Of a DNA stretch of 64,000 nt, positions 15,919-64,000 are shown piece after piece (position 1 is the stretch's first letter; the number at the start of each line of letters is the position of its first letter). A model generated the notes under the pieces. It was not told the origin of the DNA. It saw only the letters and a list, made by a program, of their open reading frames with translations, and did no database searches. The translations under genes and the position numbers were made by a program. Source of the DNA: Microglena sp. YARC (Eukaryota; Chlorophyta; Chlorophyceae; Chlamydomonadales; Chlamydomonadaceae); assembly GCA_022414725.1 (NCBI GenBank), contig CM039466.1:13719158-13783157 (forward strand), written 5' to 3'.

Positions 15919-18900
15919 TTAGGTGGTGTACTCTGTAAGCAGACGGGTTTAGGGTGCGGGTGTGAGGTGGTGTGTATGGTGTGGGTGTCTGTGGAGGGGA
16001 GGGCTGAGTTGATCTGATTTGAGTTGGTTGGCAGAGGAGTTACACCGGGGTGAAGGGCAGGCTCAACTGAAGTTGGAGGGTGCATGGAGTGTATGGGTGG
16101 ACAACTTGGCTACAATCGAAGACCCAAACTAGGTTACTACAGTTTGCTATTGTGGGTTACATGCAAAACGTACATAGAGTCTTTAAGTTACTTGCTGGCA
16201 GTCCCTGGCACGTAACTTTGGGGCTCCAAGCTTAGGTTTTTCTTGTTTATACGGAGATGGGCTCCAAATCCTTACGTGCTAGCGCATTAGCAAAAAACAA
16301 ATACGCGTTTTGTGGTACCCTGACCCAAACGCAAGACAACAACCAGCATCTATCTTGTCGGCGCAGAAAGATGCATGTTTAGATAACTCGCCGGCATGGA
16401 TATTGTTTTGAATGCTAATGTCATTATATTGTTTTGAATGCTGATGTCATCAACTTATTTTGAATGTAGTCAGATGTAGTTGTCATGTTGTTTTGAATGC
16501 TGCTTTCATAGTACAAAAGTGTTTTGCATGTTGAGGTCATAGTGCAAAACTGCTTTAAATGTTGATGTCATCAAAGTGTTTGAAAATGTTTTGATGATAC
16601 TGCTATGACGACAGACAGCTTTAAAGGCTGGAGCCATGCAACCAAGTTCAAGTTCTGTCCCTGGTTAGGTTTCTGGGTGCTAATCAATGAAACTTTGTTC
16701 ACTCGAGCTTTGACCACCGGAAACCCCTTGATTGAGACAACTTGCCAGCATTGACCTTCAACACTCTCCTTTGGTACGCACTGTGGGGTGCTTATTCCAT
16801 GTTCACTCGGGCTTTGAACAATGCAAATCCAATGATGGACACAACTTACCGGCATTGATCGTTAACACTCTCCTACAGTACGCACTGTGGGCTGCCTATT
16901 CCATGACCATCGCGAATCGCTCGATGGACACAACTTACCAGCATCGACCGTTAACACTCCCCTACAGTACGTACTGTGGGGTGCTTATTTCATATTCACT
17001 CGGGCTGTGACCCCCGGAAAAACCTAGATGGACACAACTTACCGGCATTGATCTTGACGTAGTCGTAGCTCAGATCACATCCCCAGCCCATGCCAATTCC
17101 AGGGCCAGTGCCCACAGTCACAAAGATCTTGACAGTGCCGTGCACTGCGCAGGTATCCTGAGATCACAATAATCAAGAGTTAAATAAATGAGGAATGGTT
17201 AATATATATGAGAATGGAACGGTCATATGATATCATGTCATCACGTGATATCATATAATGCCAGCAATCTGACTAGGCTAAAGTTACCATTTGTATACAA
17301 AATCATATGATCCTATTTGTATGATGTCATACTCGCATTCGGTCAACATCATATGATATGTTGATCCCTACATAAGCATACACATAGATATATGCAGTTC
17401 AATTATGTAGTATTACTTAATCGCATATGGGTATAAGGAGAGTGGGGTGAATATCTTCAAGATAGCCGGTGTCCACTGTCACAAACAAATTGACAGTGCC
17501 ATGCACTGCGCAGGTTTCCTAAGATCAGAATAATAAAAGGTTCAACAAGCGAGGACTGGCTGTTACATAAGGGTACATATGGTTACACATAGTCCTATGC
17601 TGTAGTAGTACATGGTTGATTGGTCGGTGCACATGGATATATTTAGTTAAATGATCTGGTAGTACTTAGTTACATAAGGGTGCACATGGATATATATAGT
17701 GCAATGATGTATTAGCACTTGATTACGTAAGGGTACACATGTGATGGATATATATAGTTCAACTTTCTAGTAGTACTTTTTAACACAAGGGCACATATAG
17801 TTCAATTATATAGTGTAGGGGTCATATTACATATGTATGTACCATATTACAGGGATCAGAGGGCTCATCATAGTACTGGAAATGGGCGCATGTGGATTTG
17901 TACACCTGGGGTTGTCAAGGACGATATCGCGCAGTGCCGAGAGTTGTACGATAACAATGACGATAACAACATCATGGTGTGGATAGTAGAGTTGTGAAGG
18001 AGGATATACAGACCTTTAGTGCGCTAGTGCTGCCAGAACAAGCACTGTTGGCGTCAGGACACCGTTATGAAGTCCCAAGTGCCGCCTATTTAAGTGTGGC
18101 TAGAGGCACCCTTATATAAGACAAATCCACAAGACCATTCAGATTACAGGTACACATGTTGCGCGACAAAATCTTATAAAAGAAGTTATGATACACCAAG
18201 ACAGATTCGTGGTTGGCCCCAGTGCAAGCAAGCGGGCTGACCCCCGCAACCTCAAGCCTCGTAATAAGGTAACTGCCAGTATTTATTTATTTTATTGATA
18301 GACTAACACCACAGGTGAGCACATGCGTCAAATCTTTCTAAGCGTTACTTTGTGATGCCAGTATGTTTTTTTATAGACCAAGGCCAGATGTCAGCACATG
18401 CGCTTACCTTCAAGTATTTGCTAGCTGCTGCCTTCTCAAACTCCAAGGGCTGCCCCTTCTCCATCAACTTCATGCTGCCTAGAGTCACTCCAAGGTCGTT
18501 TTGGTCAAACTGAATACCTGCACACAGCACATGCACATGGAGGTGAGACACTGGCCAACGGTTTTAAATGACGCTATTGTGGTCGAGCTGCACAGTCGAC
18601 ATTAAGGCTGAATACCTGCACACAGAACATGCACATGGAGGTGAGACACTGGCCAACGGTTTTAAATGACGATATTGTGGTCGAGCCGCACAGTCAAATA
18701 AAGGCTGAATACCGGCACAAAGAACTTACACCAAGAGGTCTGACACTAACCAAGACTTCTGTAGGAATGGACCTGCCTTTCTCAAGGACAAAGATGAACG
18801 AAGACATCTTCTGTGGCCCTCAGTGTGAAAATCCTTAGTACGAGACCCACCCTACTTTGGGGGTGAAAATCCTTACTACTACGAGACCCATCCTTGGGGT

Positions 18901-21900
18901 GAAAACCCTTCCAGCCCCGCCCCCACCCCCTGCACAAACACCCATCCCACACACACTCACATCCACCCCTGACAACTCACACACAAGCCTGTACTAGGTA
19001 GCAGTACCCAGCAGCAGCGGCGATGCGGCCGCAGTCAGGGTCATGACCGAAAATAGCAGATATGGCCAGAGCCAGCTACGGGATGATGGCTCGTGCATCA
19101 TCATCCGTCTCCCCCCCACCCTGCCCTGGCAACGAGCACAAGCCTGTGCCAGACAGCAGCACTCACTGGAGTAGCAAGCAGCAGCGGCAATGTGGCCCCA
19201 GTTAGGGTCGTGACTGAAGATAGCAGATTTGGCAAGCTAGAGCCAGCTACGGAGAGGGAGATGACTCGTGCACCATCGTCTGTCTTGCCCCCACCCCCCC
19301 ACTCACCCCACCCCTGACAACACACACAAGCCTGTGCCAGGCAGCAGCACTCACCAGAGTAGCCAGCAGCAGCAGAGATGCGGTCCCAGTCAGGGTCATG
19401 ACCAAAGATAGAAGATATGGCAAGCTAGAGCCAGCTACGGAGAGGGAGATGACTCGTGCACCATTGTCTGTCTTGCCCCCACCCCACCACTCACCCCACC
19501 CCTGAAAACACACACAAGCCTGTGCCAGGCAGCAGCACTCACCGGAGTAGCCAGCAGCAGCAGAGATGCGGACCCAGTTAGGGTCATGACCGAAGATAGC
19601 AGATATGGCAAGCTAGAGCCAGCTACGGAGAGGGAGATGACTCGTGCACCATTGTCTATCTTTCACCCACCCCACCCCTGACAACACACACAAGCCTGTG
19701 CCAGGCAGCAGCACTCACCGGAGTAGCCAGCAGCAGCGGCGATGCGGCCCCAGTTAGGGTCATGACCGAAGATAGCAGATTTGGCCAAGCTAGAGCCAGC
19801 TACGGAGCGAGCAACGACTCGTGCATCATCGTCCGTCTGGGCTCCCTTCACCTCAATCTCAATGAGGCAGGTGGCACCCTCACCATCCCAAGCGATGGAC
19901 TTGGCAAGTCCCTGTGTTGAGGTGAATGTTGGATGTGGGTTAGGTGGTGGGGCTGGTGAGGTGGGCTTGGTGGGGCGCAAGGTATGCTGTGTTGTGGATC
20001 TAGGGTGCATTGTATTTCCAAGCGATGTGGGAAGGCCCTGTGTTGGGGTGAATGTTGGGAGGTGGGTTTGGTGGTGGAGCTGGTGTGGTGGGCTTGGCGG
20101 GGGGCAAGGTATGCTCTGCGTTGTGGATCTCAAGTGCATTATATTTCCAAGCTTTAAACTTGGCAGGGTCCTGTGTTGGGGTGAATGTTGGGAGGTGGGT
20201 TAGGTGGGCTTCGTGGTTGAGCTGGTGTGGTGGGCTTGGTGGGGGAAAGGTATGCTCTGTGTTGTGGATCTAGGGTGCATTATATTCCCAAGCTATAGAC
20301 TTGGCAAGGCCCTGTGTCGAGGGTGAATGTTGGGAGGTGGGTTTGGTGGTTGAGCTGGTGTGGTGGGCTTGGTGGGGGGCAAGGTATGCTCGGTGTGGTG
20401 GGTCAGGGGTGCATTATATTCCCAAGCTATAGACTTGGCAAGGCCCTGTGTCGAGGGTGAATGTTGGGAGGTGGGTTTGGTGGTTGAGCTGGTGTGGTGG
20501 GCTTGGTGGGGGGCAAGGTATGCTCGGTGTTGTGGGTCAGGGGTGCATCATATTCCCAAGCTACAGACTTTGCAGAGCGCTGTGTTGAGGTGAATGTTGG
20601 GAGGTGGGTTTGGTGGTTGAGCTAGTGTGGTGGGCTTGGTGGGGGGTAAGGTATGCTCTGTGTTGTGGATGTTTTGTGCATCACATTCTCAAGCTACAGA
20701 TTTGACCTTACTATACTTAAGAAGGCCCTGTGTTAGGGTGAATGTTGGGAGTGGGTCTGGTGGGTGTGGTGATGGAGCTGGTGTGGTGGGCGTGGTTGGG
20801 GGCGAGGTATGCTATGTGTTGAGGATGTTGGGTGCATTACATTCCCAAGCTTTAGACTTGGCAGGGCCCTGTGTCGGGGTGAATGTTGGGAGGTGGGTTC
20901 GGTGGTGTCCGCTTGGAGGTGACATAACTGCTTTAGACAGCCCCTGAGAAAACCTTTATGCCTCTCATCTACTGTTTCTCTTTTATTTTTTCAGCCATGA
21001 GCAGAAGTTTCTAGTCAGCCCCCCTGGCTGGCGGTGCAGCCACGGTGCAAGCTCCCTAGTGCACCTGGAAGCTGACATAATCAGCTTTCCAGCACTGCTG
21101 GAAGCTTTGGGTCTACTCCAGTTGCTGGCTCAGGGAGCTGCTATGAAAAGCCGAATTCCTAATCCCTCTCCCAAATCAGAAAACGCCCAAGCAATGCATA
21201 TTGCTTCGGCCATTACCTGCATGAGGGCTGTGAGGGTGGCGTCCAGCTTCTTTCCGTCATCGCTTGATGCACCAGTGATCATGCGAGCTCTAACCTAATT
21301 CATCTTCCTAATCCCTTCCGCTAATCCAATAACACCTATGTGCTGCTCATTGCTACGGCTATTACCTGCATGAGGGCTGTGAGGATAGCATCCAGCTTCT
21401 TCCCATCTTAGCTAGATGCACCAGTGATCATGCGAGCTCTAACATTATCCCTGCCGCTAATCCAAGAACACCCATTTGCTGCTCATTGCTACGGCCATTA
21501 CCTGCATGAGGGCTGTGAGGGCAGCATCCAGCTTCTTTCCATCCTCGCTTGATGCATCAGTGATCATGGGTGCTCCAGACTTGCCACTGGCCAGGCCAAT
21601 GACACAATCGTTGGTGCTGGTGTCACCATCCACAGTAATCTGCGACAGTGTCAATGTAAATTTCAAATTCCCCTGCACACGGACTGACACACTTTCATTT
21701 TTTGTACTGGATTCCCTTCTTCATCCCCCCCCCCCCCCCCCCCCCCCCCATTCGGATATTATTGCACATGTCAGAGTTGCGCTCAGTCAGGCTGGTACAG
21801 ATAAAGAAAGTACTGATATGACCAACCAAGAATGAACAAACATCACGCAGTACTGAATGCGGTACTTTACACGGGGCTGGGGTCCAAGTACTGCGGGTAG

Positions 21901-24900
21901 ACTCCTATATCACACATAATATATCCAGCCCATATGAGATAAAGATATCCATTCCCCTACTTGGAACCACCACACACCACATTTTCCTTTTTCACTCTGA
22001 ATGAGATTACAATATCCAACCCCCTACGTGTAACCATCACAAGACACATATTCTTATATCACTATGTATGAGATTACAATATCCAATCCCCTTCTTGTAA
22101 CCATCACATGCCACATATTCCTTTGTCACTCAGCATCAGATTACAGTATCCAACACCCTATTTGTAACCATCACATGACACATATTCCTATATCAGCCCA
22201 TCTGATATTAAAAAAAACTGTTTCACCACAGGCCTCAATAATAGCAACTTGAAGAATTCTGGAGAAAACAGGTGAAGACTTACAGAGTTGAAAGAGGCCA
22301 CAGACGCCCTCTTCACCATCTCAATCCACGCTTCGGATGAAACAGCAGCGTCGCAAGTCACCACTCCAAGCATGGTTGCCATGTTGGGGTGGATCATGCC
22401 ACTTCCCTTGCACATGCCTCCAATGTTGACCTCCTTACCGCCAATGATAATCTGCAGAGCAGCGCTCTTGCTGACCAGATCTGCGTGGCAGGGGGATGAC
22501 CGAGTGAGAGTTTAGCCTATTTGGCTACTCCTGGACTGTAAAAATACATACAGGATATGAAGCAGCAGCAGCACAAGTCACCACTCCAAACATGGTGGCC
22601 ATGGTGGGGTGTACCATGCTGCTTCCCTTGCACGTGCTTCCAATGTTGACCTCCTTGACGCAAATGGTTACCTGCAGAGCAACGCTCTTGCTGACCAGGT
22701 CGGCGTGGCATGTTTGAAAATATATTCATTCACCAGCTACACATTCCACATCAAATCTGGTCACCAGCTTCTCAGCATTCCATCTGCCAAACTCGGGAGA
22801 TCACCAGAGAAGACTCGGGAATATGAACAGACCAAACTAGGGAATATCTCCTGACCAAACTAGATAACATCTTCAGAGCGAACTTAGGAATATCTCATGA
22901 CCAAACTAAAGAATATCTCCAGATCAAACTAGGGAATATCTCCAGATCAAACTAGAGAATATCTTCAGAGCGAACTTGGGAATATCTCTTGACCAAACTA
23001 GGGAATATCTCCAGATCAAGCTAGGGAATATCTCCAGACCCAACTAGAGAATATCTCCAGACCCAACTTAAGAATATCTCCAGACACAACGAGATAATAT
23101 CTTCAGAGCAAACTTGGAAATATCTCCAGAGCAACTTAGGGAATATCTTCAAAGCAAGCGTGAGAATATTTTGGGAGCAAACGAGGGGAGTATCTCCAGA
23201 GCAAACGAGGGAATCTCTCCAGGATGGCGGGGAATGACCGTATGAGATGAATATTGTGGTCACTATCATTCTCGCTCCAAGATTATCATGCGATATGCGA
23301 TATCATTTGGCGATTGGTCCCAGGGGAAGCGACCGGGCTGGCTATTTTATAATGATATGTTCGTGTTAGATTCCAGCCTCATCACATGTGTCTTAGTATG
23401 AAACTGCATGGTGATGCTTAGCACCTGTGAAGTGGTATGTCTTCACATGACGGTTCACACAGTCTAGCAGTTTCAGCTAGCTCAACACAGGGTCCAGACA
23501 CTTACCAGTGGTGGTAATAGCAATAGCTGACTGGTGGCCATCCTCCAGAGTATTTCCCAACTTGGTGACAATCTCAGGGATGGCAGGCCTGAAGGCCTCC
23601 ATCTTCATTCGTCGACCGATCACACCTGTGCCAACAGAAAAAACATTTGAATAGGCAGGACCAAGTTGGTTAAAACCTCAGGAATGGCAGGTCTGAAGGC
23701 TGCCATCTTCATAAGTTTACTGACCACACCTGTACCAACAGAAGAAACAATTGAATGTGGTAGGCAGGACCAAGACGATGAGCAAGGAAAGTGAGCCGAA
23801 ACAGAACTAAGCAGAGTGATTCTTAAGCAACAGAAAAAACATACCAGTAAAGACAGGCGAAACATTATTCAGAATGATATGATCAGGTAGGGGCAAAGTA
23901 CTTTAGCCCTCTGTATATAGTCATACATCTCAATACATTATATTAACCCAGTCCCAAACTATCCAATTAACTACATGAGAATGTCTCTCATGTATATTCT
24001 CTCATGTAAATTTTACGACTGGGTTTGTGGCACCATTCCAGTATAAGGAAGCTTGTGAGAGGAGCATGCGATGAGACAAAACAGCCTGGAAACCAACGTA
24101 GTCGAGGCAAGATAGTAAACAATGGCCGCAACCAACCTGCTCACCTCATCCCGCAACCCCACGACCTCCACCAAATTCCCATGAACACCTGACCCCCCCT
24201 GAACACTGAAATACCTCACCATTTCATACTTCACAAAGTTTGACGCTTACCGCCAGCGCCCACCACTTTGCCGAGCAAAACCTAAACAAAAAGGTAAATA
24301 AAACCCATGCCACCAAACCCAGACGCACCAGTTGACATGAGCATAATATCGTCCTTTTCAATTCCCATAGCCTCAGCCAGAATGGTGGCACACTCAACGG
24401 AATCAGCGTATCCCTGATCGCCAGTGGCAGCATTGGCTTGTCCTGCATTGGTCAACACCTGGAGGACAGAGTGGCACGGGCACACCATAAACCTTAAAAA
24501 ATACCCAAATGAACTGAGTTAACTGAAGTGAGTGAGTGAAATCAGTCTTTCTAATACGTCAGAGGAAAACAAATGTCTCATCGAGCACCGATAATAAAAA
24601 GGGTATAGAGCTCAGTATGAACCTGTACTGGTTGATATGGAGCTCTGATGGAGCTTGTGTGTTGAATTGAAATGTTAGATCGTGGGAGAGTCCACAATGT
24701 AATATTGCAAGTGATTGCAAGCTGATGTCATTGAATGACGCATGGCACCGTGACTTGATAACACCCATGGCTTACCCACACTTACAGCGCGGCAGGTCTT
24801 CTTGCGAGTCAGTACATCCTTGCAGTACAGGACTGGGGCTGCGCACATGACGTTCTGGGTGAAAGTACCACCGACGATAGCATCCTCGTCAGCAACAACG

Positions 24901-35800: not shown

Positions 35801-37135
35801 TATCTGCATCTCCTAAGTGATTGTTGCTGTCAATTTTGGTGGAAACTCTTCTCAAAGCAGGCAACACAGTTCTATATTTTCCATACAACGAGCCCCCCCC
35901 ATGAAGCATCTGCTCAAGCAACCCCTATTTGTCTTGTACCACGCCCAATAGAGATGTGAATTAACATTTTATCATTCTGTTGCCTCCATGTTTCTGAATG
36001 GTCTTTTTATCGTTCTGTTGCCACCATGTTTGTGAATGGTCATTTTATTACCTGTTGCCTCCATGCCAGGTCCCGTCCCATCTTCGCCCTTGATGCTAGC
36101 TTCCAGAACCGGTTGAACAGTGCATCTGGGCTTCCTCTGGCAGCAAGCATGACACACAAGGGAACTTCAGCATTTTATCATTCTGTTGCCTCCATGTTTC
36201 TGAATTGTCATTGATCACCTGTTGTCTCCATGTCAGGTCCCGTCCCATCTCCGCCCTTGATGCTAGCTTCCAGAACCGGCTGAACAGTGCATCTGGGCGT
36301 CCTCTGGCAGCAAGCATGACAAACAAGGGAACTTCAGCTTCACAGAGATCAACCTCTGCCCATCGAGAGAGTGGCCTTGGTTCAACAGCCGCTAGCCAGG
36401 GACATAGTGCTATGACCTATACATCTGATAGCAGACTGCCCACCATCTCATCCCAATCACCCAACCGAGGCCAACGTCCCTTCAGTGCTGTCAGCGACGT
36501 CGATGATGCCTTTTTCATTCGGGATGTAGATGAAGGACTTGCAAATGAGCCCAGTAGCAGACCTGTGAGCTCTATGCCCAAGCACCGCAACCCTGCCATG
36601 CCACCAGGACAAGGGACAGTGAACAGCCGCACAGGCACATCTACCTCTCGTGCCACAGCCTGCCTGTCAGCCACTCGTTACGATGGCCTCCACTCAAAAG
36701 CCATCCCTAGCGGGAGGGATACCAAGCCAGGCCAAGGCCTCCCTAGGGCCGACTATGTCTGGAATGTCAAGGTCCCTGCAGGATCTGTCATCACCTCACC
36801 GTCCTCAGCACTCTCCAGTGCTAGGCAGCATGTCCGTGCAGCCAGCGCCTCCCTGAGGAAGTATGCCATGCCTCAGACCCCCTCCGCCATGAGCACCATT
36901 GGCACCACCTATGCCAGGCGCCCTAAGGCCCCGTACTCTGGTGATGCCTCCCTCCCCACTCCCAGTGAGCGTATCGCAAGCAACTACACGCCATCTGCTC
37001 GGGGGCTTAGCCCAAGGATGCTTGAATTCCTGATGCCCGGGGGGATCAAGCCCGGGGCAGTTGGGCGGCTACCAATCCCAGAATGGCATGAAGTGGATGG
37101 GGCAGAAATTCTGGATGGAGCTCCTGAGGCTGATG
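32880..37135 (+). CDS. Dynein exons 1-5: Ser/Pro/Arg-rich N-terminal tail
   Basis: Five exons in phase. They read [80 protein letters not shown] and then about 300 residues of low-complexity Ser/Arg/Pro sequence ending [13 protein letters not shown]. This part is poorly conserved in dyneins, so its assignment rests on splice phase and continuity with exon 6. Exon 2 uses an AAG acceptor, which is weaker than the others. Confidence 0.65.
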
Positions 37136-38386: not shown

Positions 38387-38420
<34 letters not shown>

Positions 38421-49852: not shown

Positions 49853-49943
<91 letters not shown>

Positions 49944-49949
49944 CTTCTA

Positions 49950-49981
<32 letters not shown>

Positions 49982-49987
49982 CCTGCC

Positions 49988-50043
<56 letters not shown>

Positions 50044-50049
50044 CTTCTA

Positions 50050-50131
<82 letters not shown>

Positions 50132-50133
50132 CT

Positions 50134-50176
<43 letters not shown>

Positions 50177-50186
50177 GCCTGCCTGC

Positions 50187-50230
<44 letters not shown>

Positions 50231-50240
50231 CTTCTATCTA

Positions 50241-50273
<33 letters not shown>

Positions 50274-56200: not shown

Positions 56201-57878
56201 CAGCCTGTTTGCTTGAGTTGGCTAAAAATAAATAAATACATGAATAGTACGCCTTATCATGAAGCGTGAGGTTGAGGGGGACAGCCCGTTTGCTTAAGCT
56301 GGCTTAAGATAACTAAATACATAAACAGTACGCCTTATTACAAGGCGTGAGGTTGAGGGGGCCAGTCCGTTTGCTTAATTTGGCTTAAAAACCATGTAAC
56401 AATCCAATCCAACCCCCTCAACCAATCCAACCTCTCCAACCAATCCAACTTTCCCAATCCAACCCAAACTTCCCAACCAATCCAACCTTCCCAATCCAAT
56501 CCAATCCAACCTTCCCAATCCAATCAAACCTCCCCAACCAATCCAACCAATCCAATCCAACCTTCCCAACCAATCCAACCTCAGGCGCGTGGGCATGTTT
56601 CGATGAGTTCAATCGCATTGAGCTAGAGGTGCTGTCGGTAGTTGCCCAGCAGGTGCTGACCATTCAGCGAGCCAAGCAGGCCGAAAAGAAGCGCTTCACC
56701 TTTGAGGGGTCCGAGCTGCCGCTGATCAAAACATGCAATGTGTTCATAACCATGAACCCAGGCTACGCAGGCAAGTCTGGGGTTGGGGTGGTGGGGGTGG
56801 GGGGGTGGGAGCTGGAGGTGCTGACCATTCAGCGAGCCAAGCAGGCCGACAAGAAGCGCTTCATTTTTGAGGGGTCCGAGCTGCTGCTGATCAAAACATG
56901 CAATGTGTTCATCACCATGAACCCAGGCTACGCAGGCAAGTCTGGGGTTGAGGTGGTGCGTTTGTGTATGTGTGGGTGTTGGTGGGTGGGGGGCTGGGTG
57001 GAAGCTGCCGCTGATCAAAATATGTAATGTGTTCATCGCCATGAACCCAGGCTATGCAGGCAAGTCTGGGGTGGTGGTGGTGGTGCGTTTGTGTATGTGT
57101 GTGTGTGGTGGTGGTGGTGGTGGTGGTGGGGGTGGGGGGGAATGGAAGCTGCCGCTGATCAAGGCATGTACTGTTTTCATCGCCATGAACCCAGGCTATG
57201 CAGGCAAGTCTGGGGTTGTGGTGGTGGTGGTGGGGTGGGGTGGGGTGTGGGGGTGTGGGGGGGTGGGGGGGGACCTGGAGGTGCTGACCATTCAGCGAGC
57301 CAAGCAGGCCGACAAGAAGCGCTTCACCTTTGAGGGGTCCGAGCTGCCGCTGATCAAAACATGCAATGTGTTCATCGCCATGAACCCAGGCTATGCAGGC
57401 AAGTCTGGGGTGGTGGTGCGGTTGTGTATGTGTATGTGTGTGTGTGGGGGTGGGTAGGGGGGCTGGGTGTGTGGGGGGGGGAAGCTGCCGCTGATCAAAA
57501 CATGCAATGTGTTCACCGCCATGAACCCAGGCTACGCAGGCAAGTCTGGGGTGGTGGTGGTGGTGGTGGTGCGTTTGTGCATGAGTGTGTGTGTGGTGTG
57601 TGTGTGTGGGGGGGAGGGGGGGAGGGGCTGGGTGGAAGCTGCCGCTGATCAAAACATGCTATGTGTTCACCGCCATGAACCCAGGCTACGCAGGCAAGTC
57701 TGGGGTGGTGGTGGTGGTGGTGGTGCGTTTGTGTATGAGTGTGTGTGGGGGGAGGGGAGGGGGGAGGGGCTGGGTGGAAGCTGCCGATGATCAAAACATG
57801 CTATGTGTTCATCGCCAGGAACCCAGGCTACGCAGGCAAGTCTGGGGTGGTGGTGGTGGTGCGTTTGTGTATGAGTGT

Positions 57879-57909
<31 letters not shown>

Positions 57910-60900
57910 GGGGGGAGGGGCTGGGTGGAAGCTGCCGCTGATCAAAACATGCAATGTGTTCATCGCCATGAACCCAGGCTACGCAGGCAAGTCTGGGTTG
58001 TTGTTGGTGGTGGTGCGCTTGTGTATGTGTGTGTGCGTGTGTGGGGGGGTGGGGGGGGGGGTGGGGGGAAGCTGCCGCTGATCAGAACATGTAATGTGTT
58101 CATCACCTTGAACCCAGGCTACGCAGGAAAGTCTGGGGTTGGGGTGGTAGTGGTGGTGGTGGTTGTGGTGCGATTGTGTATGTATGTTAGTGGGTGGGTG
58201 GGTGGGGGAGGGGGGAGCTGGGTGGAAGCTGCCGCTGATCAAAACATGTAATGTGTTTATCGTCATAAACCCAGGCTATGCAGGCAGGTCTGGGCTGCCT
58301 TACAGCCTAAAGCCCTTGTTCCGAGACATGGCCATGATGGTTCCTCCACCTCCCACACCCCTCCCCCACCCAACTCACCCACCTAACTCACCCCACCCAC
58401 TCCCTGTCCCAGGTCGCTCTGAGCTGCCTGACAACCTGAAGGCCCTGTTCCGAGATGTGGCCATGATGGTCCCTGACTATGCCATGATCGCTGAGATCAT
58501 GCTCTACTCGTACGGTTACATGGAGGCGCGCTCGCTAGCGCAGAAGCTGGTACAGACCTACCGCCTTTGCTCAGAGCAGCTCTCGCGACAAGACCACTAC
58601 GACTATGGCATGCGTGCCGTGATGGCGGTCTTGCGTGCTGCCGGCAACCTCAAGCGTCGCTACCCCGAACAGGTGAAAACATAATTGTGACCCTCCTCCT
58701 CCACCTCTTCCTCCTCCTCCCCCCCCCCGCCCCCACCACCATCACACACACACACTACGCCCCCCACCACCCACTCACCCACACCCACCCCACCCTACCT
58801 GCCCTTCCCCCTCTTCCCTCACTGCCACCACACTCACTACCACCTGCTCCCCTTGACTTTCCTCCTGCAGGAGGAGGACGTGCTAATGCTGCGTGCCATC
58901 ACTGACGTCAACCTGCCCAAGTTCCTAGGGGAGGACGTGCCCCTTTTCATGAGCATGCATCCCTCCTCTCCCCCCCCCCCCCCCCCCTGCACCCCTCCAC
59001 CTCCCACCCGCTCCCCACCACCACCACCACCACCACCCTACACACATAGACAGTCACTCACCACACCACTCCACCCCTCTTCCCTCACTGCCACCTGCCC
59101 CCCTTGACTCTCCTCCTCCAGGAGGAGGACGTGCTAATGCTGCGTGCCATCACTGACGTCAACCTACCCAAGTTCCTCGACGAGGACGTGCCCCTCTTCA
59201 AGGGCATCCTCAGCGATCTCTTCCCGGGCGTCCTGCTCCCCGACATAAACTACACCGACATCCTAGGCGCTCTGACAGAGAACTCCATCAAGCAGGGTCT
59301 GCAGCCTCTACCTGCGTTCCTGGATAAGGCCATTCAGTTGTACGAAATGATCATCGTGCGACACGGCCTGATGTTGGTTGGCCAGTCGTTTGGCATGAAG
59401 ACCTCGGCCATCCGGGTCCTCGCAGGTAGGGGGGGCTGGTCAGCACTTCTTTTCCTGAACCACCGAAATCCTAATCGTTAACCCTAAAACCACCCAAACC
59501 CTAAATCCTTAACTCTAAACCGTGGCCTGAAGACCTCGGCCATCCGTGTCCTTGCAGTTAGGGGGGAGCTGTTCAGCACTTAGCTGTTCAGCACTTCTTT
59601 TTCCGCTACGTATATAGCGCTACTTTTGACCACGTTTTGGCCCAAATTGCCGCTATCAAAAAAGTTTGGCCCTAAATGGCCCTACAAAGGTTTTAGAAGC
59701 TACAAAGACGCTGTCCCTGGACGAGGCCTAGAACCATAAAGCTAGAAAAAACCCACTTTCAGAGTTGATAACAAAAAATCCCGATGGTCAGCACTTCTTT
59801 TCCTGAACCACCGAAACACTAAACCTAAACCCTAAATCCTAAACCATTTAAACCCAAGTGCTGACCAGGTTCCCTCCACTCCCCCACTTGCAGCCTTCTT
59901 GGAGGACCTGTGCAAGGCTGACAAGGGGGAGTTAAAGACCAAGTACTTAACACCCCATAACCCCCACCCCACCCCCTGCCTCACCCCCACTCCTCCACTT
60001 GCAGCCTCCTTGGGGGACCTGTGCAAGGCTGACAAAGGAGGAGTTCAAGACTTAGTACTACACAATATACACCCCACCCCCACCCCCATATCCACCCACC
60101 CACCCACCCCCTGCCTCACCCCACTCCCCCACCTGCAGCCTCCTTGGGGGACCTGTGCAAGGCTGACAAAGGAGAGTTCAAGACTAAGTACTACACGCTC
60201 AACCCCAAGTCAGTGTCTCTAGGCCAGCTGTACGGTCAGGATGATCCTCTTTCCCAGGAGTGGACTGATGGTATCCTCGCAGTCACCTTCAGGTATGCAT
60301 GTTGTTTGTTGTTACAGTGATAATGTATGCATGTATGTATGTATGCATGCATGTATGTATGTATGTATGTATGTATGTATGTATGTATGTATGTATGCAT
60401 GCATGCATGTATGTATGTATGTATGTATGTATGTATGTAGGTATGTAGGTATGTAGGTATGTAGGTATGTATGTATGTGTGTATGTCTGTCTGTCTGTGT
60501 GTATGTATGTATGTATGCATGTATGTGTGTGAATGTATGTATGTATGTATGTATGTATGTATGTATGTATGTATGTATGTATGTATGTATGTATGTATGT
60601 ATGTGTGTGTATATGTATGTATGTGTGTATGCATGCATGCATGTATGTATGCATGTACTAGTACGGTAGCCCGTGTGGCCGGTGGCCACACCTACTCTCA
60701 CGTAGACAAACCACCCCCTCCCCAATCATAGTACGGTGCCCGTTTGGCCTTTGGTCACACCTGTTTGGGGCTGGGTTACATAATGGTTTACATTTGTACT
60801 CCCCCCTACTACGCCCCCCCCCCCCCCCCCCCCCCCTCCCCCTCCTTCCCTCCCGCTAGCCACACCTGTTTTTGGCTGGGTTACAAAACGGTTCATGCTG

Positions 60901-61047: not shown

Positions 61048-64000
61048 ACAAACACACACACCAGTTATCTCCACGCCCACCCAACCATGTACCCCCAGTC
61101 CCCACACACAAACATATTCCCTTACTCTTCCTCACATATTTCCTGACTCCATCCCTTCCCCCACTCCAGCCATCCCACCAGACCCCCACCCTCTCCCCTT
61201 CCTCCTACACGCACCCACCAGCACACACATACTCCCTTTCTGCCCCCCTCCACTTCAGCTGTGTGATTTGCCATAGATGAAATGCAAACGGGACGAAGAT
61301 CAGGCTGCAGATCCAACCCATCGACAACGTTTGCGCATAAACCGTCTCCGCTAAAAGCATCGGACCTGCTTCCCTGCCACCTCAGCTGTGATCGATAGTC
61401 GACCCCACTGAAAATATGAACCTGCACAATCGAAACTGTACATAACTGAAGCTTCTTCTTAGCGAGCATGTACTCAGTTCGGCCGAAGAACAATCCCACT
61501 CACCGCAACTGCTCCCCAAGTCAACTTGATCTGAGACTTGGGAACATCGCTAGGTTCCTCCATTCAACTTTACCGCGTACTTGCTATGGCACAATGCAGA
61601 GCGATATTTTTCTCAATGCAGTGGGAAGAAGTTGCAGTCAAGTTTGTGACATGGATGCAATTCGGACATTTCTGCCAGGTCGGCTGACTCCCACGTCACC
61701 TTCCGTTGTGCCCAGCGACAGGTCTCTTGACGCAAGGGAAAGGTTTTGCAGAGATGCAGGGGCAAAAGCTTGTAGGAAGACGAACTGAAGTGCTGCAGAA
61801 ATCAGGTGGATGAACTCAGGCGGGAAAAGGAGAAATCAGGCAGGATACGTAGCAGGTAGAATATGCAGGAGGCAAAGGTCGCATACGGCAGAATTCGTAG
61901 GAGGCCAAATAAGGCAGAAGTTGAAGCAAAAGGATTAAAAGCGGGAATTGGCTGGGCGGGAAGTCGGTGAAGTCGGTTTCACGATGGCACCACCACCACG
62001 ACCACGACCGCCATGATTTCTTTATATATATGTTGTATGTTATTACAGTGGTAATGGATGGATGGATGGATTAATGGATATTGGATGTTGTTACAGTGAT
62101 CATGTATGTATGCATGGCTAAGGCTAAAACGAAACAAAACTGGTGAACTGACTGAAGGCTAGCTGTATGGGCAGGATGATCCTCTATCCCAGGATTGGAC
62201 TAATGTTATCCTCGCAGTTACCTTACCCAGTTCTGTATGTGTCGGCTGTGAGGAAGGAAGAGGAGGGTTGGGTGGGTTGGGTGGGAGGACAGGGGGAGGG
62301 TGGTGGTGGAATGGGGGGGAGGGGAGGGGAGGAAGGAGGGGGAAGATGGGAGGGGGAGGGAGGTAGAGCCTTCAGGTCTGTCTGTCTGTCAGTCAGACAG
62401 TCTGTATTTAACTTGAACTTAAACTTGGTTACATAACTTCACCTAGCAATTTGACTGCTCACCGTCTTGGGCAGTACAAATCATTTACCAGAAAAAATGT
62501 ATGTATGTATGTATATCCCTTGTTGTTACAGCATGTTGTCTGCTGTGTGGGCCTGTAAACAATGGGCAGCATCCTTTCCTTAAGGCCTTATCAACAGGAG
62601 CACTCCAGGAATCACTCATTTTTGTTAGGACCATGTTTCACTGCTCGCAGTGTATTGGTCTGCATATTCAAATGTGTGTTGTCACAGTCCAGGGGTGGCC
62701 AAATAGGCTAAAGGGACTTGCCCAACCATGATATCAAGAGGGGCTAGTAAGAAAAATCAGGGATTTGTTTTCCATGATATTGGGATAGCTACTTTTGACC
62801 CTGCTTTGGTCCACATTGCCTCTAAACTAAATGTCCTAAATGGCCCTCAAAAGCCATACAAAGCTCACACACACACACACATCGTTTCCCCATCTTCAGG
62901 TCTGCTGCCAGGGACACTCCTCACACTCCTCGCACCCACACCCACACCCACACATACACAAACACACCGTTTCCCCACCTTCAGGTCTGCTGCCAGGGAC
63001 ACCAGCCCAGATCGCAAGTGGCTTGTATTTGATGGACCTGTCGATGCCATCTGGATTGAGAACATGAACACGGTGCGTATACACTCCAGAGTTATCTGTC
63101 TCTGTCCCAGTCCCTTATCCTGTCTCTGTCTTCGTCGGATCTTTGTCTCTGTCTCTCTCCTTGTCCCTATCTCTGTCTCTGTCCCAGTCCTAGTTCCTGT
63201 CTCTGTCTTTGTCGCTATCTCTGTCTCTGTCTCAGTCTCTGTCTCTGTCCCTGTCCCTATTTCTGTTCTTATCTCTGTCTCTGTCTCTATTCCTGTCTCT
63301 GTCCCTGTATTTGTCTCTGTCTCTATCTCTGTCACTGTCTCTATCTCTGGAACTGCCTCTGTCCCTGTCCCTGTCTTTTTCTCTATCTCTGGAACTGCCT
63401 CTGTCTCTGTCTTTGTCTCTATCTCTGTCCCTGTCCCTGTCCCTATCTCTGCTCCTGTTTCTGTCTCTGTCTCTATCTCTGTCTCTATCCCTGTCTCTGT
63501 CTCTGTCCCTGTCTTTTTCTCTGTCTCTGTCTCTGTCTCTGTCCCTATCTCTGTCACTGTCTTTGTCTCTATCTCTATCACTGTCTCTGGACCTTCCCCT
63601 GCCCCTGTCTCTGTCTCTATCTCTATCTCTGTTTCTGTCTCTGTCCTTGTCTCCCCCCCCCCCCTGTCCTCCACCCCTCTTCCCTCACTGTCACCACGAT
63701 CACTACCACCTGCTCCCCTTAGGTTCTGGATGCCTTGCTTTTTGTTTATTTGTAAAAGCATAATATGAGCCTCCCCCCCCCCCCCACACACACACACCAC
63801 ACACACCACACACACCACCACCATCACCTCCACACCACCACTGCCAGCAGCAACAGCCCACCCTACCCACCCCACCACCACCCCCTGACCTCCCCCCCTC
63901 TTTCCTCGCTGTCACCACACTCACTGCCACTTGCTCCCCTTAGGTTCTGGATGCCTTTCTTTTTGTCTATTTGTGAAAGCATACATATGACCCTCCCCCA
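32880..64000 (+). CDS. Axonemal dynein heavy chain, N-terminal half (inner-arm type), runs off the window
   Basis: Motor of ciliary beating. Exons: 32880-32968, 33350-33445, 34345-34510, 35007-35127, 36237-37135, 37986-38260, 39571-40227, 41290-41854, 43088-43334, 43851-44412, 47239-47758, 48077-48351, 49742-49852, 52126-52223, 53567-54389, 55504-55783, 56585-56770, 58413-58672, 59122-59425, 60139-60292, 62985-63072. All phases join: 2251 codons from the in-frame ATG at 32903. The tail has a Ser/Pro/Arg-rich N-terminus, then FMPLELFD...PEEW. From the linker on the match to dyneins is clear: [43 protein letters not shown]1 follows with [16 protein letters not shown] (about residue 1875) and ACFDEFNRI (about 1924). 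AAA2 begins near residue 2000 with [11 protein letters not shown] (about 2155). Tail blocks recall DNAH1-type inner-arm chains (from memory). The true start may lie in an unseen upstream exon. Next exon begins after 64000; two partial copies of its start (GTTCTGGATGCC) are at 63723 and 63944. Confidence 0.93.
33584..33752 (+). repeat. MITE-like family B copy (dynein intron 2)
   Basis: Shares ATGCCGGCAGTCTTACTAGG and GTTAACATCATATGATATGC with the other copies. Ends in GCCGGTCCCTA. Confidence 0.7.
35128..35300 (-). repeat. Dispersed family C and A fragments (dynein intron 4)
   Basis: Family C appears as TTGAACTCGAACTTGGTAAT and GCTGCTCGCCGTCTTTGGCA. A family A fragment (TTTTAGCCTATTTGGACTAC, minus orientation) at 35195-35250 is inserted between them. 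Confidence 0.5.
35975..36236 (+). repeat. Dynein exon 5 acceptor-side partial copy
   Basis: Sequence from the intron tail through the first about 100 bp of exon 5 is duplicated at 36070-36170, with acceptor CCATGCCAG followed by GTCCCGTCCC. The copy ends inside the exon and lies about 167 bp upstream of the real acceptor at 36236. Confidence 0.85.
37986..44412 (+). CDS. Dynein exons 6-10: conserved tail
   Basis: Exon 6 has [20 protein letters not shown] and EEWVQLG. Exon 7 begins [11 protein letters not shown] and encodes the helical tail (219 codons). Exon 8 has an Ala/Glu-rich acidic linker ([11 protein letters not shown]) followed by a basic patch. Exon 9 reads [20 protein letters not shown]. 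Exon 10 (187 codons) is helical and ends [15 protein letters not shown]. The segments would bind intermediate/light chains and dock the arm; partners cannot be read from the sequence. Confidence 0.85.
38270..38430 (+). repeat. ATC and AAT trinucleotide repeats
   Basis: ATCATC units pass into a long AATAATAAT tract in dynein intron 6. Confidence 0.85.
38619..38715 (+). repeat. CCCT tetranucleotide repeat and CA repeat
   Basis: CTCCCTCCCTCCCTCCC run followed by ACACACACAC in intron 6. Confidence 0.85.
38884..39015 (+). repeat. CCATA pentanucleotide repeat
   Basis: More than 20 units of CCATA with a few variants, in dynein intron 6. Confidence 0.9.
39148..39290 (-). repeat. Dispersed family A copy
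   Basis: Reverse-orientation copy: CTTGGGGTTCAGTTCATCAG ... GCCTGTTTGGCTACCCCCTG then GACTGCAACAACATAACAAC. Confidence 0.7.
39355..39510 (-). repeat. Dispersed family E copy
   Basis: Its reverse complement shares CCCAATTGCCGCTAT and flanking sequence with 59605-59780 and 62788-62862 on the plus strand. It lies 60 bp upstream of dynein exon 7. Confidence 0.5.
40228..40900 (+). repeat. CACCACACAC low-complexity region
   Basis: Immediately after the exon 7 donor. CACCACACACC-type units, with two to three longer repeats sharing CACCATCCCT(C/T)ACGCA and AAAACACTC. No gene. Confidence 0.85.
41066..41265 (+). repeat. tRNA-derived SINE or tRNA pseudogene with intact A and B boxes
   Basis: A-box TGGCTCAATGG (41070-41080) in a D-arm (GCTC/GAGC) and B-box GGTTCGATTCC (41109-41119), 39 bp apart as in real tRNAs. 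The anticodon loop (GAACGAA) lacks U33, its stem has a mismatch and the acceptor stem does not pair, so it is not a functional tRNA. About 130 bp of unrelated tail ends in T-runs near 41255. Looks like a SINE. Confidence 0.5.
42050..42242 (+). repeat. MITE-like family B copy (dynein intron 8)
   Basis: The most complete copy: starts TAGGGAACAGCAATATGATA and ends GATATGCCAGTCCCTA, which are imperfect inverted ends. Confidence 0.75.
42260..43087 (+). repeat. Dynein exon 9 acceptor-side array (three truncated copies, about 250 bp)
   Basis: Acceptor-bearing copies of the first 110 bp of exon 9 begin at 42339, 42590 and 42841; the complete exon begins at 43088. Spacing is 251, 251 and 247 bp. Each truncated copy diverges after the codons for DMFDAMK, where TAA follows. 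Intron tails (GCCTCTTTGGCAGTTTTCAT) are part of the unit. Confidence 0.95.
43360..43455 (+). repeat. Dynein exon 9 donor-side copy
   Basis: The last about 80 bp of exon 9 with its GTAAATGATGAGG donor region is repeated once after the real donor at 43335. Confidence 0.9.
44441..44570 (+). repeat. TATG tetranucleotide repeat
   Basis: ATGTATGTATGTATG run in dynein intron 10, followed within about 80 bp by a family A element. Confidence 0.9.
44643..44775 (+). repeat. Dispersed family A copy
   Basis: CAGTCCACGGGTAGACCAAA ... GAGTTTGTGCTCAGTGATAA; preceded by GCATGTATGTTGTTT. Confidence 0.75.
44840..45060 (+). repeat. Tandem repeat of about 60 bp, four copies
   Basis: Units of CTTTTCTTTTCAGTTGGG plus GGGAGCCAACCTTGAGTG. 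Each unit contains a pyrimidine tract and CAG, so each looks like a 3' splice site. Confidence 0.8.
45050..45236. repeat. Dispersed element G copy
   Basis: Starts TTTTCTTTTCAGCTGTAAGC and ends AGCTGAAAAGAAAAGC; the ends are inverted. Shares its middle with 20985-21160. Confidence 0.5.
45570..46015 (+). repeat. 130-bp tandem array, three copies, with an open frame of unknown origin
   Basis: Units contain ACTTGTCCAAGCTGAAGTTG and CATGTATACACAGC. They read [17 protein letters not shown] in one frame. No intact exon matching it was found nearby. Confidence 0.75.
46313..47238 (+). repeat. Dynein exon 11 acceptor-side array (eight truncated copies, about 113 bp)
   Basis: Exon-like starts at 46446, 46559, 46671, 46783, 46899, 47012 and 47127, plus a worn copy near 46320; the complete exon starts at 47239. 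Spacing is 112-116 bp. Each unit is an intron tail ending in GTGCAG, then GTGAATGCAGAGCATGTC (GTAAATGCAGAG in three) and about 65 bp of exon, ending ACGCTGAGCATGCTACC. Only the last copy continues into ACGCTGAAGGCAGAC. Confidence 0.97.
47239..54389 (+). CDS. Dynein exons 11-15: linker (DHC N2) region
   Basis: Exon 11 ([19 protein letters not shown] ... [15 protein letters not shown]) and exon 12 ([15 protein letters not shown] ... [17 protein letters not shown]) are classic linker blocks. They continue through exon 13 ([13 protein letters not shown]), exon 14 ([20 protein letters not shown]) and exon 15 ([10 protein letters not shown] ... [20 protein letters not shown] ... [18 protein letters not shown] ... 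[12 protein letters not shown]). This swinging linker moves over the AAA ring during the power stroke. Confidence 0.95.
47808..47960 (+). repeat. Dynein exon 11 donor-side copy
   Basis: The last about 140 bp of exon 11 plus GTATGCATTGTGT of the intron is repeated once, joined to a family A fragment (47782-47800). Confidence 0.9.
48352..48990 (+). repeat. Dynein exon 12 donor-side array (four copies) with poly-G tracts
   Basis: The last about 100 bp of exon 12 (CAAGAGTGGAACAACGTGCA ... AGCAGTGTGGAGGAAGC) recurs at about 48413, 48582, 48721 and 48889. Between copies the intron start GTGTGGTGGGTGGTG and G-runs (48365-48400, 48840-48875) are repeated. Confidence 0.95.
49005..49440 (+). repeat. 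G/A-only minisatellite
   Basis: About 430 bp of almost pure purine (GGAAGGAGGGGAAG and variants) in intron 12. It could form triplex or quadruplex structures. Confidence 0.9.
49853..50290 (+). repeat. TCTG tetranucleotide repeat
   Basis: About 110 units of TCTG/CTGT, beginning exactly at the exon 13 donor (CAG followed by GTCTGT). Long Cys/Leu/Ser/Val ORFs here are artefacts. Confidence 0.97.
50290..50435 (+). repeat. Dispersed family F copy
   Basis: Shares CTTATCAACGGGAGCACCCC and CACTCATTTTTG with 62515-62665. It lies between a TCTG repeat and a GTAG repeat. Confidence 0.6.
50432..50550 (+). repeat. GTAG tetranucleotide repeat
   Basis: AGGTAGGTAGGTAGGT run with GTGG variants. Confidence 0.9.
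50625..50808 (+). repeat. MITE-like family B copy (dynein intron 13)
   Basis: Starts GTAGGGAACAGCAACATGAT, has the central GTCTGACTAAGCTAAAGTTA and ends GCTAGGCCCTAC. Confidence 0.75.
50921..51730 (+). repeat. 186-bp tandem array seeded by family A
   Basis: Four units of about 186-205 bp, each with a family A start (GTAGTCAAATAGTGTTAAGG), a CAGCCCCGCC-rich stretch and GCTCTATGTTCACTAG ... CCAATGCATGCCGTCATG. The last unit leads into a complete family A element (51688-51830). Confidence 0.9.
51688..52075. repeat. Pair of family A copies in opposite orientation
   Basis: Plus-orientation copy 51688-51830 and minus-orientation copy 51965-52075, about 130 bp apart, just before exon 14. The transcript could form a hairpin. 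Confidence 0.75.
52224..52500 (+). repeat. Dynein exon 14 donor-side array (two extra copies, about 105 bp)
   Basis: The end of exon 14 with its donor (AAGAGAGGTATGTA) recurs at about 52310 and 52415, each followed by CAGTCCAGCCTTTACGT-type intron sequence. Confidence 0.85.
52550..53566 (+). repeat. Dynein exon 15 acceptor-side copies (two) in CCTAATTTATAAG repeats
   Basis: Copies of the first about 140 bp of exon 15 start at 52700 and 53166 (CTCAG then GTATGAATTCCAGG or GTACGAGTTCCAGG) and end at a shared point (TTAACAACTAAATCATGCC). The complete exon starts at 53567. Between them A/T-rich units of about 20 bp (CCTAATTTATAAGAAAACAT) recur many times. Confidence 0.95.
54540..55503 (+). repeat. 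Dynein exon 16 acceptor-side array (six truncated copies)
   Basis: Starts near 54603, 54712 and 54825 (decayed acceptors, short), then 54916, 55112 and 55308 with perfect 196-bp spacing to the complete exon at 55504. The longer copies keep about 84 bp of exon (VRMLNA ... RLVITPLTD) before switching to the GTGGGTGTGG intron sequence. Confidence 0.96.
55504..58672 (+). CDS. Dynein exons 16-18: AAA1 motor module
   Basis: Exon 16: [20 protein letters not shown] and the P-loop [14 protein letters not shown], then [20 protein letters not shown]. Exon 17: [20 protein letters not shown] (Walker B), ending [11 protein letters not shown]. Exon 18: [40 protein letters not shown]1 is the main ATPase site. 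Exon 17 uses a GC donor (GCAGGCAAGT at 56767), unlike the GT donors elsewhere; the next acceptor is at 58412. Confidence 0.95.
55830..55990 (+). repeat. CAAA tetranucleotide-rich tract
   Basis: AACAAACAAACAAAC units with interspersed AGATAAACAGAC. Confidence 0.85.
56040..56590 (+). repeat. 82-bp tandem repeat (four copies) and CCAATCCAAC repeat
   Basis: Units of AAATACATGAATGGTACGCC plus TTATTATGAAGCGTGAGG, then a family D fragment (ACCATGTAACAATCCAATCC) whose end is expanded into a CCAATCCAACC tract running into the exon 17 acceptor. Confidence 0.85.
56771..58350 (+). repeat. Dynein exon 17 donor-side array (about ten copies)
   Basis: The exon 17 end (ATCAAAACATGCAATGTGTT ... AACCCAGGCTACGCAG) with the GC donor GCAAGTCTGGGG recurs at about 56811, 57001, 57146, 57271, 57481, 57644, 57777, 57932, 58071 and 58227. 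Two copies (56811 and 57271) start further 5' and keep about 130 bp of exon; the others keep about 60 bp. GGTGGTGGTG and G-runs separate them. Confidence 0.96.
58860..58960 (+). repeat. Dynein exon 19 acceptor-side copy
   Basis: CTGCAG followed by GAGGAGGACGTGCTAATGCT and about 85 bp of exon 19, about 250 bp upstream of the real exon, then C-rich intron. Confidence 0.92.
59122..63072 (+). CDS. Dynein exons 19-21: AAA2 start
   Basis: Exon 19: [47 protein letters not shown] and a P-loop GQSFGMKTS. Exon 20: [30 protein letters not shown]. Exon 21: [20 protein letters not shown]. The AAA2 P-loop has Met where most dyneins have Gly just before the Lys. AAA2 usually binds but does not hydrolyse ATP. 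Confidence 0.95.
59465..59565 (+). repeat. Interstitial telomere-like tract and exon 19 donor-side copy
   Basis: AACCCTAAA-type units (59478-59520, and again 59820-59850) flank a short copy of the exon 19 end (AAGACCTCGGCCATCCGTGT) in which the donor reads GTTAGG. Confidence 0.7.
59605..59780 (+). repeat. Dispersed family E copy
   Basis: Contains CTACTTTTGACCACGTTTTG and AAATTGCCGCTATC; related to 39355-39510 and 62788-62862. Confidence 0.5.
59894..60138 (+). repeat. Dynein exon 20 acceptor-side copies (two)
   Basis: GCAG followed by CCTTCTTGGAGGACCTGTGC at 59894 and CCTCCTTGGGGGACCTGTGC at 60005, each with about 55 bp of exon; the complete exon is at 60139. Confidence 0.94.
60315..60660 (+). 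repeat. TATG/TGCA tetranucleotide repeat
   Basis: About 345 bp of ATGTATGTATG with GTAGG and TCTG variants, starting about 25 bp after the exon 20 donor. Confidence 0.95.
61260..61990 (+). other. Non-repetitive segment in dynein intron 20, no recognised gene
   Basis: Unlike the rest of the intron it is complex sequence of balanced composition, with a 106-codon plus-strand ORF (61468-61788) containing [20 protein letters not shown]. No domain and no matching exon phase were recognised. It could be an insertion, a nested gene fragment or a cassette exon. Confidence 0.3.
62150..62240 (+). repeat. Decayed dynein exon 20 donor-side copy
   Basis: GCTAGCTGTATGGGCAGGAT and GATCCTCTATCCCAGGATTG repeat the exon 20 end with substitutions, nearly 2 kb downstream of the real donor. 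Confidence 0.85.
62408..62750. repeat. Cluster of family C, F and A copies
   Basis: Family C (minus, 62408-62480), family F (62515-62665) and truncated family A (62684-62750) lie next to one another with TATG repeats between them, followed by family E (62788-62862). Confidence 0.6.
62880..62984 (+). repeat. Dynein exon 21 acceptor-side copy
   Basis: CATCTTCAG followed by GTCTGCTGCCAGGGACAC at 62900 duplicates the first 18-20 bp of exon 21, 85 bp upstream of the real exon. Confidence 0.9.
63073..63660 (+). repeat. TCTGTC hexanucleotide-type repeat
   Basis: CTGTCTCTGTCCCTGTCTC units for almost 600 bp after the exon 21 donor; the long ORFs on both strands here are artefacts. Confidence 0.96.
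63660..64000 (+). repeat. Acceptor-side array of the next dynein exon (221-bp period)
   Basis: Two units each carry CTTCCCTCACTGTCACCAC, CTGCTCCCCTTAG and GTTCTGGATGCC at 63723 and 63944. Neither continues into the expected coding sequence (after VLD), so the complete exon must lie beyond the window. Confidence 0.85.

Follow-up and report, generated by a model that had tools for sequence, protein, structure and literature searches.

Tandemly duplicated exon-intron junctions in the ArgJ and dynein heavy chain genes of the green alga Microglena sp. YARC

Two genes of the green alga Microglena sp. YARC have introns that hold tandem copies of their own exon edges, and the question they raise is whether exon-intron junctions provoke such duplications or are simply caught up in them. 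The window analysed here is a stretch of 64,000 nucleotides (contig CM039466.1, called C5 below, positions 13,719,158 to 13,783,157 of the forward strand) in an assembly of 568 Mb and 2390 contigs; coordinates count from its first nucleotide. It contains two genes, ArgJ on the minus strand and an axonemal inner-arm dynein heavy chain gene on the plus strand, the latter extending about 55 kb beyond the window. Exon models were built with a spliced aligner written for this analysis, with the proteins of relatives as queries. The original prediction held that tandem units spanning splice junctions grow in both genes by a regular process anchored at exon boundaries. We found that the junction-spanning units are real, and we consider it probable that they stem from frequent tandem duplication at positions blind to gene structure, with units often of 100-180 bp and with purifying selection acting as the filter.

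We scored a junction as duplicated when at least 45 positions matched, at a shift of 20-1500 bp, in a 60-bp window that took in 15 bp or more on either side; low-complexity windows were removed. No duplicated bases were found in a letter-shuffled 20-kb piece. In the dynein gene, which the spliced-alignment models trace beyond the window, local tandem duplications take in 56 of 100 exon edges (two of which are ends of the gene model), as they do 7 of the 18 internal junctions of ArgJ (the acceptors of exons 5, 6, 8, 9, and 10 and the donors of exons 7 and 8) and 6 of 9 junctions of CCT1, a gene elsewhere on the contig. Spliced alignment gave 52 dynein exons, and the counts use 50 of them (median length 207 bp; median intron length 1085 bp), two weak ones at 87787-87864 and 91200-91262 (extended coordinates) being dropped. 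For ArgJ, the exons named beforehand were 4-9, and six exons are indeed found, modelled as 5-10, so that the numbering agrees if the first exon of 40 bp is left uncounted. For dynein, 12 of the 17 exons in the window (1, 5, 7, 8, and 10-17) have a duplication over or into an edge, those of exons 10 and 14 being short in reach or under the junction threshold in one scan; the exon numbers originally given for this gene cannot be mapped one to one onto our models.

The copies at a junction are adjacent or nearly so, have the same orientation, and include one that is complete. Partial copies, termed decoys here, were collected in a looser scan (junction-centred 60-bp window, at least 42/60 matches, shift up to 4000 bp), which gave 164 decoys distributed over 29 acceptors and 24 donors (53 junctions in all), with a maximum of 18 at one acceptor. 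If, as had been proposed, the copy that adjoins the exon body is the only complete one, the functional copy would be the last in an acceptor array and the first in a donor array. This polarity holds for 141 of the 164 decoys. The 23 on the wrong side are mostly at exon 18 (17 decoys), where, as at exon 49 (one), the unit contains the whole exon; the rest are at exons 24 and 27 (two each) and 26 (one), for which the gene model is doubtful. The exon 18 unit, at 69.2-73.2 kb from the start of the window, is 454 bp long and occurs in about nine near-identical copies that keep both splice sites. We presume from the sequence that the complete copy is the one that is spliced.

Next, the distribution of duplicated sequence around the dynein junctions was examined. 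Coverage is flat across the introns: upstream of acceptors it amounts to 0.64 between -1000 and -600 and to 0.62 over the last 30 bp, and on the intron side of donors it is 0.59 far from the junction (600-1000 bp) and 0.64 adjoining it. Within exons, where the nearer half of each exon was measured, coverage starts at 0.61 (acceptors) and 0.60 (donors) over the first 30 bp, has fallen to 0.17 and 0.21, respectively, by 100-150 bp, and is 0 between 200 and 300 bp. The share of duplicated windows is 53.5% in introns (n = 52,059), 17.1% in exons (n = 10,021), and 40.0% where intron and exon are mixed (n = 5,668), and none of 116 arrays lies wholly inside a modelled exon. Events were counted as linked families; counting by single arrays split the long ones and mislabelled array copies as intron-only. 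Among 101 dynein families, 44 contain a functional junction, another 14 touch an exon, and 43 do neither, which leaves 57 families with no functional junction. The overhang into the exon fits a uniform law (Kolmogorov-Smirnov p = 0.19 for the 22 of 52 junctions that are cleanly tandem, the nearest copy pairs of the other 30 lying further apart, covering a whole exon, or falling at the limits of the range). Reading frame is ignored, since overhang modulo 3 is distributed 15/16/20 and unit length modulo 3 is 14/18/20 at the 52 junctions. With no peak at the junctions and more than half of the families free of them, the proposed boundary-anchored growth is not borne out. The splice-coupled copying suggested along with it also finds no support. 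RNA-mediated or splice-coupled copying back into the gene would leave copies that end at splice sites or are intronless; the units hold intron and end at arbitrary positions in exons, no point in favour of such copying was found, and we give it almost no credence.

The sequence of the decoys indicates how they evolve. Where a junction has two or more decoys (28 junctions), the changes private to a single decoy are spread over the three codon positions as 63/62/83, while the sites that set the functional copy apart from decoys agreeing among themselves are spread as 7/7/34 (33 synonymous and 15 not). This suggests that the decoys drift nearly freely and that the functional copy is constrained. 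A pooled codon ratio was also tried as a measure of selection on decoys and was rejected, as splitting the changes puts the strongest bias on the functional lineage. In-frame stops occur in 13 of 154 decoys, compared with 14-17 in simulations. Decoys have the same splice dinucleotide as the functional copy in 151 of 164 cases (86/95 acceptors and 65/69 donors); mismatch rates of 0.047 and 0.042 at codon positions 1 and 2 predict 149.7 of 164 kept dinucleotides by (1-0.0445)^2. The divergence of the copies also bears on whether the arrays are an artefact of assembly. Some are near identical (the exon 18 unit and that at exon 39), and copy numbers of undiverged arrays could be wrong; 154 of 164 decoys, however, have at least 2 mismatches to the functional copy in 60 bases, which makes assembly error an unlikely source for those decoys, and the best identity per family ranges from 0.75 to 1.0. 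An artefact is therefore highly improbable as the general explanation. The same spread of identities suggests that the production of duplicates goes on.

Duplicated junctions are also present in other genes. Six-frame Pfam hits of kinesin (112 of 128 table rows), chaperonin, and dynein AAA_6 (a set that includes the dynein of the window) were taken from a hidden Markov model (HMM) table and searched for partial exon copies up to 2.5 kb from a longer copy. There are 35 such copies, 32 on the predicted side of the longest copy (22 share its end and lie downstream, 10 share its start and lie upstream), none reversed, and three ambiguous. They occur in 16 of 59 multi-hit clusters (chaperonin 1/12, kinesin 8/34, and AAA_6 7/13), and seven partial copies follow a single exon of a dynein gene on C1. 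A kinesin gene on C6, picked because it shows no decoy in the table, has a coverage of 0.82 and 5 of 8 hit edges duplicated. At three chaperonin loci the coverage outside hits is 0.66, 0.32, and 0.48, with 6/10, 2/10, and 2/14 hit edges duplicated, indicating that the density of duplication varies between genes. Another chaperonin hit, C2:59850440-59850862 on the minus strand, lies within an open frame of 2883 amino acids, which is odd for an intron-rich genome. Sixteen stretches sampled at round-number positions, half of them 10 kb and half 2.5 kb long, have a pooled coverage of 0.26, with a median of 0.20 and a range of 0-0.85. The proposal that the process extends beyond two genes is supported by CCT1, kinesin, and part of the HMM clusters, and it needs tempering for the two other chaperonin loci, where duplication is thinner.

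Several points weigh against blind duplication with near-neutral decoys. If events are placed at random and wholly exonic ones are removed, 18 of 101 families are expected to include a junction in the present introns and 26 when arrays are collapsed, and the 44 observed exceed both. This excess favours a process in which the junctions themselves provoke duplication, for example by transcription-coupled breaks or R-loops at exon edges. The expectation rises to 39 when low-complexity DNA is also removed, so that the excess falls within the random range, and to 63 with introns of 250 bp, where it is reversed; as the expected count spans 18-63 with the ancestral intron length, boundary enrichment hinges on an assumed value. 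Junction pairs would in addition stay detectable for longer, one exon half being held by selection, which amounts to a detection bias. Given the flat profile in the introns and overhangs that fit uniform placement, we regard anchoring at boundaries as unlikely. Other adverse points are that the 200-300 bp exon bin, in which coverage drops to 0, consists of 541 bases per side only, within the nearer exon half; that dynein introns are covered to about 0.6 and the sampled genome to 0.26, which leaves room for a preference for introns; that 43 of the 59 multi-hit clusters show no HMM partial copy, these being no clean negatives since HMM hits see only long partial copies and miss short pieces; and that the analysis covered the assembly sequence alone.

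On the side of the decoys, 75 of 208 private changes (36%) are synonymous vs. 22.5% at random, and 3 of 208 are stops vs. 3.7% expected. Measured by whole-exon identity or intron identity, 135 or 103 of 164 splice dinucleotides would be kept, so that the decoy sites look over-kept. The third-position excess between functional copy and decoy is 3.04 when pooled (95% range 2.42-3.76) and 2.63 (2.14-3.36) when weighted by junction, compared with 1.5-1.7 in a neutral simulation. The excess may come in part from one change in the functional lineage being counted repeatedly and in part from copies exchanging roles; junctions with a single decoy still give 27/23/57. Base composition as its cause was rejected, the intron mismatch rates by base being 0.094-0.108. 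The strong pooled excess, the surplus of synonymous private changes, and the mostly intact splice sites are what would be expected if the copies were used as alternative exon ends or splice regulators under selection. Decoy-private changes, however, are near even over codon positions, the units disregard reading frame, in-frame stops are about as frequent as simulated, and the partial copies lack the other splice site, so that we consider such use very unlikely. None of the three yardsticks for splice dinucleotides suggests selection against decoy splice sites. The decoys appear nearly neutral by sequence; strict neutrality would go beyond the data.

Position-blind duplication followed by purifying selection would operate as follows. 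Short segments, often of 100-180 bp, would be duplicated in tandem frequently and without regard to gene structure. Wholly exonic duplications would be removed by selection, while intronic ones and those straddling an exon-intron junction would leave one complete copy of the exon and be tolerated; the partial copies would turn into neutral decoys, some multiplying to arrays of about 18. The duplications themselves may arise by fill-in or end joining at staggered breaks, with unequal exchange enlarging the arrays later. Match length minus period ranges from -28 to +21 in the 43 high-identity pairs passing a -30 to +40 bp filter; homology of more than 3 bp occurs only in multi-copy arrays, and the rest have at most 3 bp or are separated by a short unmatched spacer. 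Such breakpoints seem easier to reconcile with fill-in or end joining at staggered breaks than with recombination among repeats already present. Among the unit lengths of 214 families, 51 are of 20-60 bp, 21 of 60-100 bp, 45 of 140-180 bp, and 11 of 200-240 bp; the difference between the 140-180 and 60-100 bp classes (45 vs. 21, p = 0.004) is suggestive only. A stronger version, in which a genome-wide duplication mutator with nucleosome- or Okazaki-sized units, peaking at 100-180 bp next to a short class of 20-60 bp, outpaces decay, exon definition is strict, and copies perhaps trade places, is possible, and we lean somewhat against it. If it is true, unequal exchange of functional and decoy copies would explain the third-position excess.

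For splicing, the arrays imply that the machinery must discriminate, since most decoys keep AG or GT. Up to 18 decoys have to be ignored at one junction, which suggests exon definition. A partial copy has one splice site per exon piece, so exon-wide recognition skips it, and pairing across the nearest intron would not; the complete copy would be the only one with both splice sites across a single exon.

ArgJ spans 17044-25966 on the minus strand, with 10 exons by spliced alignment and PF01960 hits. The exons are at 25966-25927, 25654-25484, 24949-24786, 24458-24329, 23625-23506, 22480-22284, 21639-21502, 19911-19719, 18517-18408, and 17157-17044. Internal splice sites from the donor of exon 2 onward are the same with four proteins, EukProt P0121 among them; exon 1, the exon 2 acceptor, and the 3' end of the gene come from P0121 by itself. 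P0121 matches ArgJ at 98% across the whole query, EukProt P0003 matches the dynein composite at 85% in the best local piece (27%), and the gene numbers of the two are close; by sequence they look like the annotation of the ArgJ and dynein genes of the window. Seven arrays reach ArgJ junctions on this strand. A 104-bp unit present 1.9 times crosses the exon 5 acceptor with 69 bp of exon (23557-23756), and a 220-bp array crosses the exon 6 acceptor with 144 bp of exon (22337-22710), where a second PF01960 hit has the same profile start. The exon 7 donor is crossed by a 136-bp array with 74 bp of exon (21200-21575), and exon 8 is affected at both ends, by an array of about 188 bp x 3.8 with three decoy donors across the donor (19003-19838) and by one of about 134 bp that reaches the acceptor (19886-20907). 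A 98-bp x 2.2 array extends 8 bp into exon 9 at the acceptor (18510-18725), and a duplication with a 361-bp shift crosses the exon 10 acceptor (17104-17548). One 67-bp x 3.9 array is intron-only (21933-22195).

The first 17 modelled dynein exons span 36232-63192 on the plus strand, by spliced alignment to the Chlamydomonas eustigma homologue P0001 and by homologues; C. eustigma has the closest named homologue, at 66% over 44% of the query. Exons 1-9 are at 36232-37135, 37986-38260, 39571-40227, 41290-41754, 43108-43334, 43851-44412, 47239-47758, 48077-48351, and 49742-49852, and exons 10-17 at 52126-52223, 53567-54389, 55504-55783, 56585-56770, 58413-58672, 59122-59425, 60139-60292, and 62985 to about 63103; the alignment carries exon 17 on to 63192, and this end was trimmed by hand to 63103. 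The model begins at 36232 and leaves out exons further upstream. Past the window, modelled exons 25 and 33 each contain an in-frame stop, which probably marks a missed intron; exons 24-28 and 30 are weakly modelled, and the model skips the stretch from exon 17 to exon 18, so that single junctions in that part of the gene are uncertain.

All dynein arrays are on the plus strand. Over the start of modelled exon 1, an alignment start rather than a proven acceptor, lies a 167-bp x 1.8 array with 107 bp of exon (36044-36338). Exon 5 has a 251-bp x 3.7 array across its acceptor with three decoy acceptors (42240-43198) and a 113-bp x 2 array across its donor with 81 bp of exon (43254-43481). Exon 7 likewise has a 112-bp x 8.4 array across the acceptor (46339-47296) and a 191-bp x 1.9 array across the donor with 146 bp of exon (47613-47979). 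The exon 8 donor is crossed by an array of 150-166 bp with three decoy donors (48248-48981), and a 93-bp x 3 array reaches 9 bp into exon 10 at the donor (52215-52493). Copies of the acceptor end of exon 11 occur at -401 and -867 with short-unit arrays between them (52536-53703). A 196-bp x 3.8 (and 111-bp) array crosses the exon 12 acceptor with five decoy acceptors (54605-55588), and one of 140-165 bp with nine decoys crosses the exon 13 donor, where the functional donor is GC (56651-58297). A 129-bp duplication extends 62 bp into exon 14 at the acceptor (58281-58474), under the 60-bp junction threshold. At exon 15 there is a copy of the acceptor end at a 251-bp shift with 86 bp of exon (58833-59207) and a duplication at a 132-bp shift that extends 35 bp into the exon at the donor (59391-59566), also under the junction threshold (43/60). 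The acceptors of exons 16 and 17 are crossed by a 111-134-bp array with two decoys (59873-60192) and by an 85-bp duplication (62866-63002), respectively. Intron-only arrays of the gene are of 146 bp x 3.1 (45563-46009), 186 bp x 4.3 (50911-51731), and 81 bp x 4 (56064-56391).

Microsatellites in this gene frequently start at donors or within about 60 bp of them (49853-50299, 44433-44567, 60323-60657, 63095-63653, and 38319-38419), and a (GTCT)n array starts at the GT of the exon 9 donor itself. Low-complexity coverage is 0.30-0.45 near dynein junctions (within 100 bp) vs. 0.25-0.27 at 600-1000 bp. Outside both genes, the window contains a young 152-bp x 7.7 array at 10080-11247 (98% matches), so tandem duplication is not confined to the introns of ArgJ and dynein. 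Long minus-strand open reading frames at 2569-6738 and 3-1466 read, by eye, like the endonuclease/reverse transcriptase and RNase H region of a long interspersed nuclear element.

The arrays amount to an ordinary mutational process at an unusual scale that is useful for splicing research. They are a natural test of exon recognition, as the choice of the right copy needs information from across the exon, and they point to a route of intron growth from exon edges as well as internally. They also carry a warning for annotators, as decoys may enter gene models as exons, as in the EukProt dynein model P0003, or models may break off at arrays, as in the EukProt CCT1 model P0241, which stops at the exon end where an array starts.

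Among known systems, intronic minisatellites and satellites with nucleosome-sized units resemble these arrays in unit size and array growth; the algal units differ in that they include parts of coding exons and the gene's own splice sites. Introners, which are mobile, likewise change intron content en masse, whereas the algal units contain sequence of the gene in which they sit. Short tandem duplications from break repair were reportedly described by Vaughn and Bennetzen in 2014 for rice insertions, and a report by Schiml in 2016 is said to concern them as well. In mammalian cells, fill-in by CST and Pol alpha-primase gives rise to short single insertions (<100 bp) at breaks (PMC8355091). The algal duplications are likewise tandem and mostly without long end homology, but their units are commonly of 100-180 bp and form arrays. 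In the Rogers/Hellsten model of intron gain, as outlined in PMC4974935, an exonic unit with AGGT is duplicated in tandem and tolerated through splicing. Intragenic tandem duplication tolerated by splicing is common to both, but the algal units carry an existing junction and intron, and wholly exonic arrays number 0 of 116, AGGT itself not having been searched for.

The closest precedent is the potato RdRp gene (Ma, Lan and Niu, 2016, PMC4974935), in which a tandem duplication across an intron-exon boundary created a new intron in one event by way of a cryptic donor, and a second, 83-bp duplication is intron-only. As in the alga, the unit runs from the intron tail through the acceptor into the exon, with the copies in tandem; unlike that single event, the alga has many duplicated junctions in several genes, with copies up to about 18. 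The phenomenon had been put forward as one not recognised as described; junction-crossing duplication is in fact known, and what looks new is the scale, which takes in most junctions of some genes. Beyond potato RdRp, no comparable decoy arrays are among the literature matches listed, subscription journals being mostly outside that scope. For splicing, the relevant comparison is with Volvox and Chlamydomonas, which a Volvox study (PMC4378016) takes to use intron definition because their introns are short, averaging 491 and 373 bp; splice recognition in Microglena may differ from theirs.

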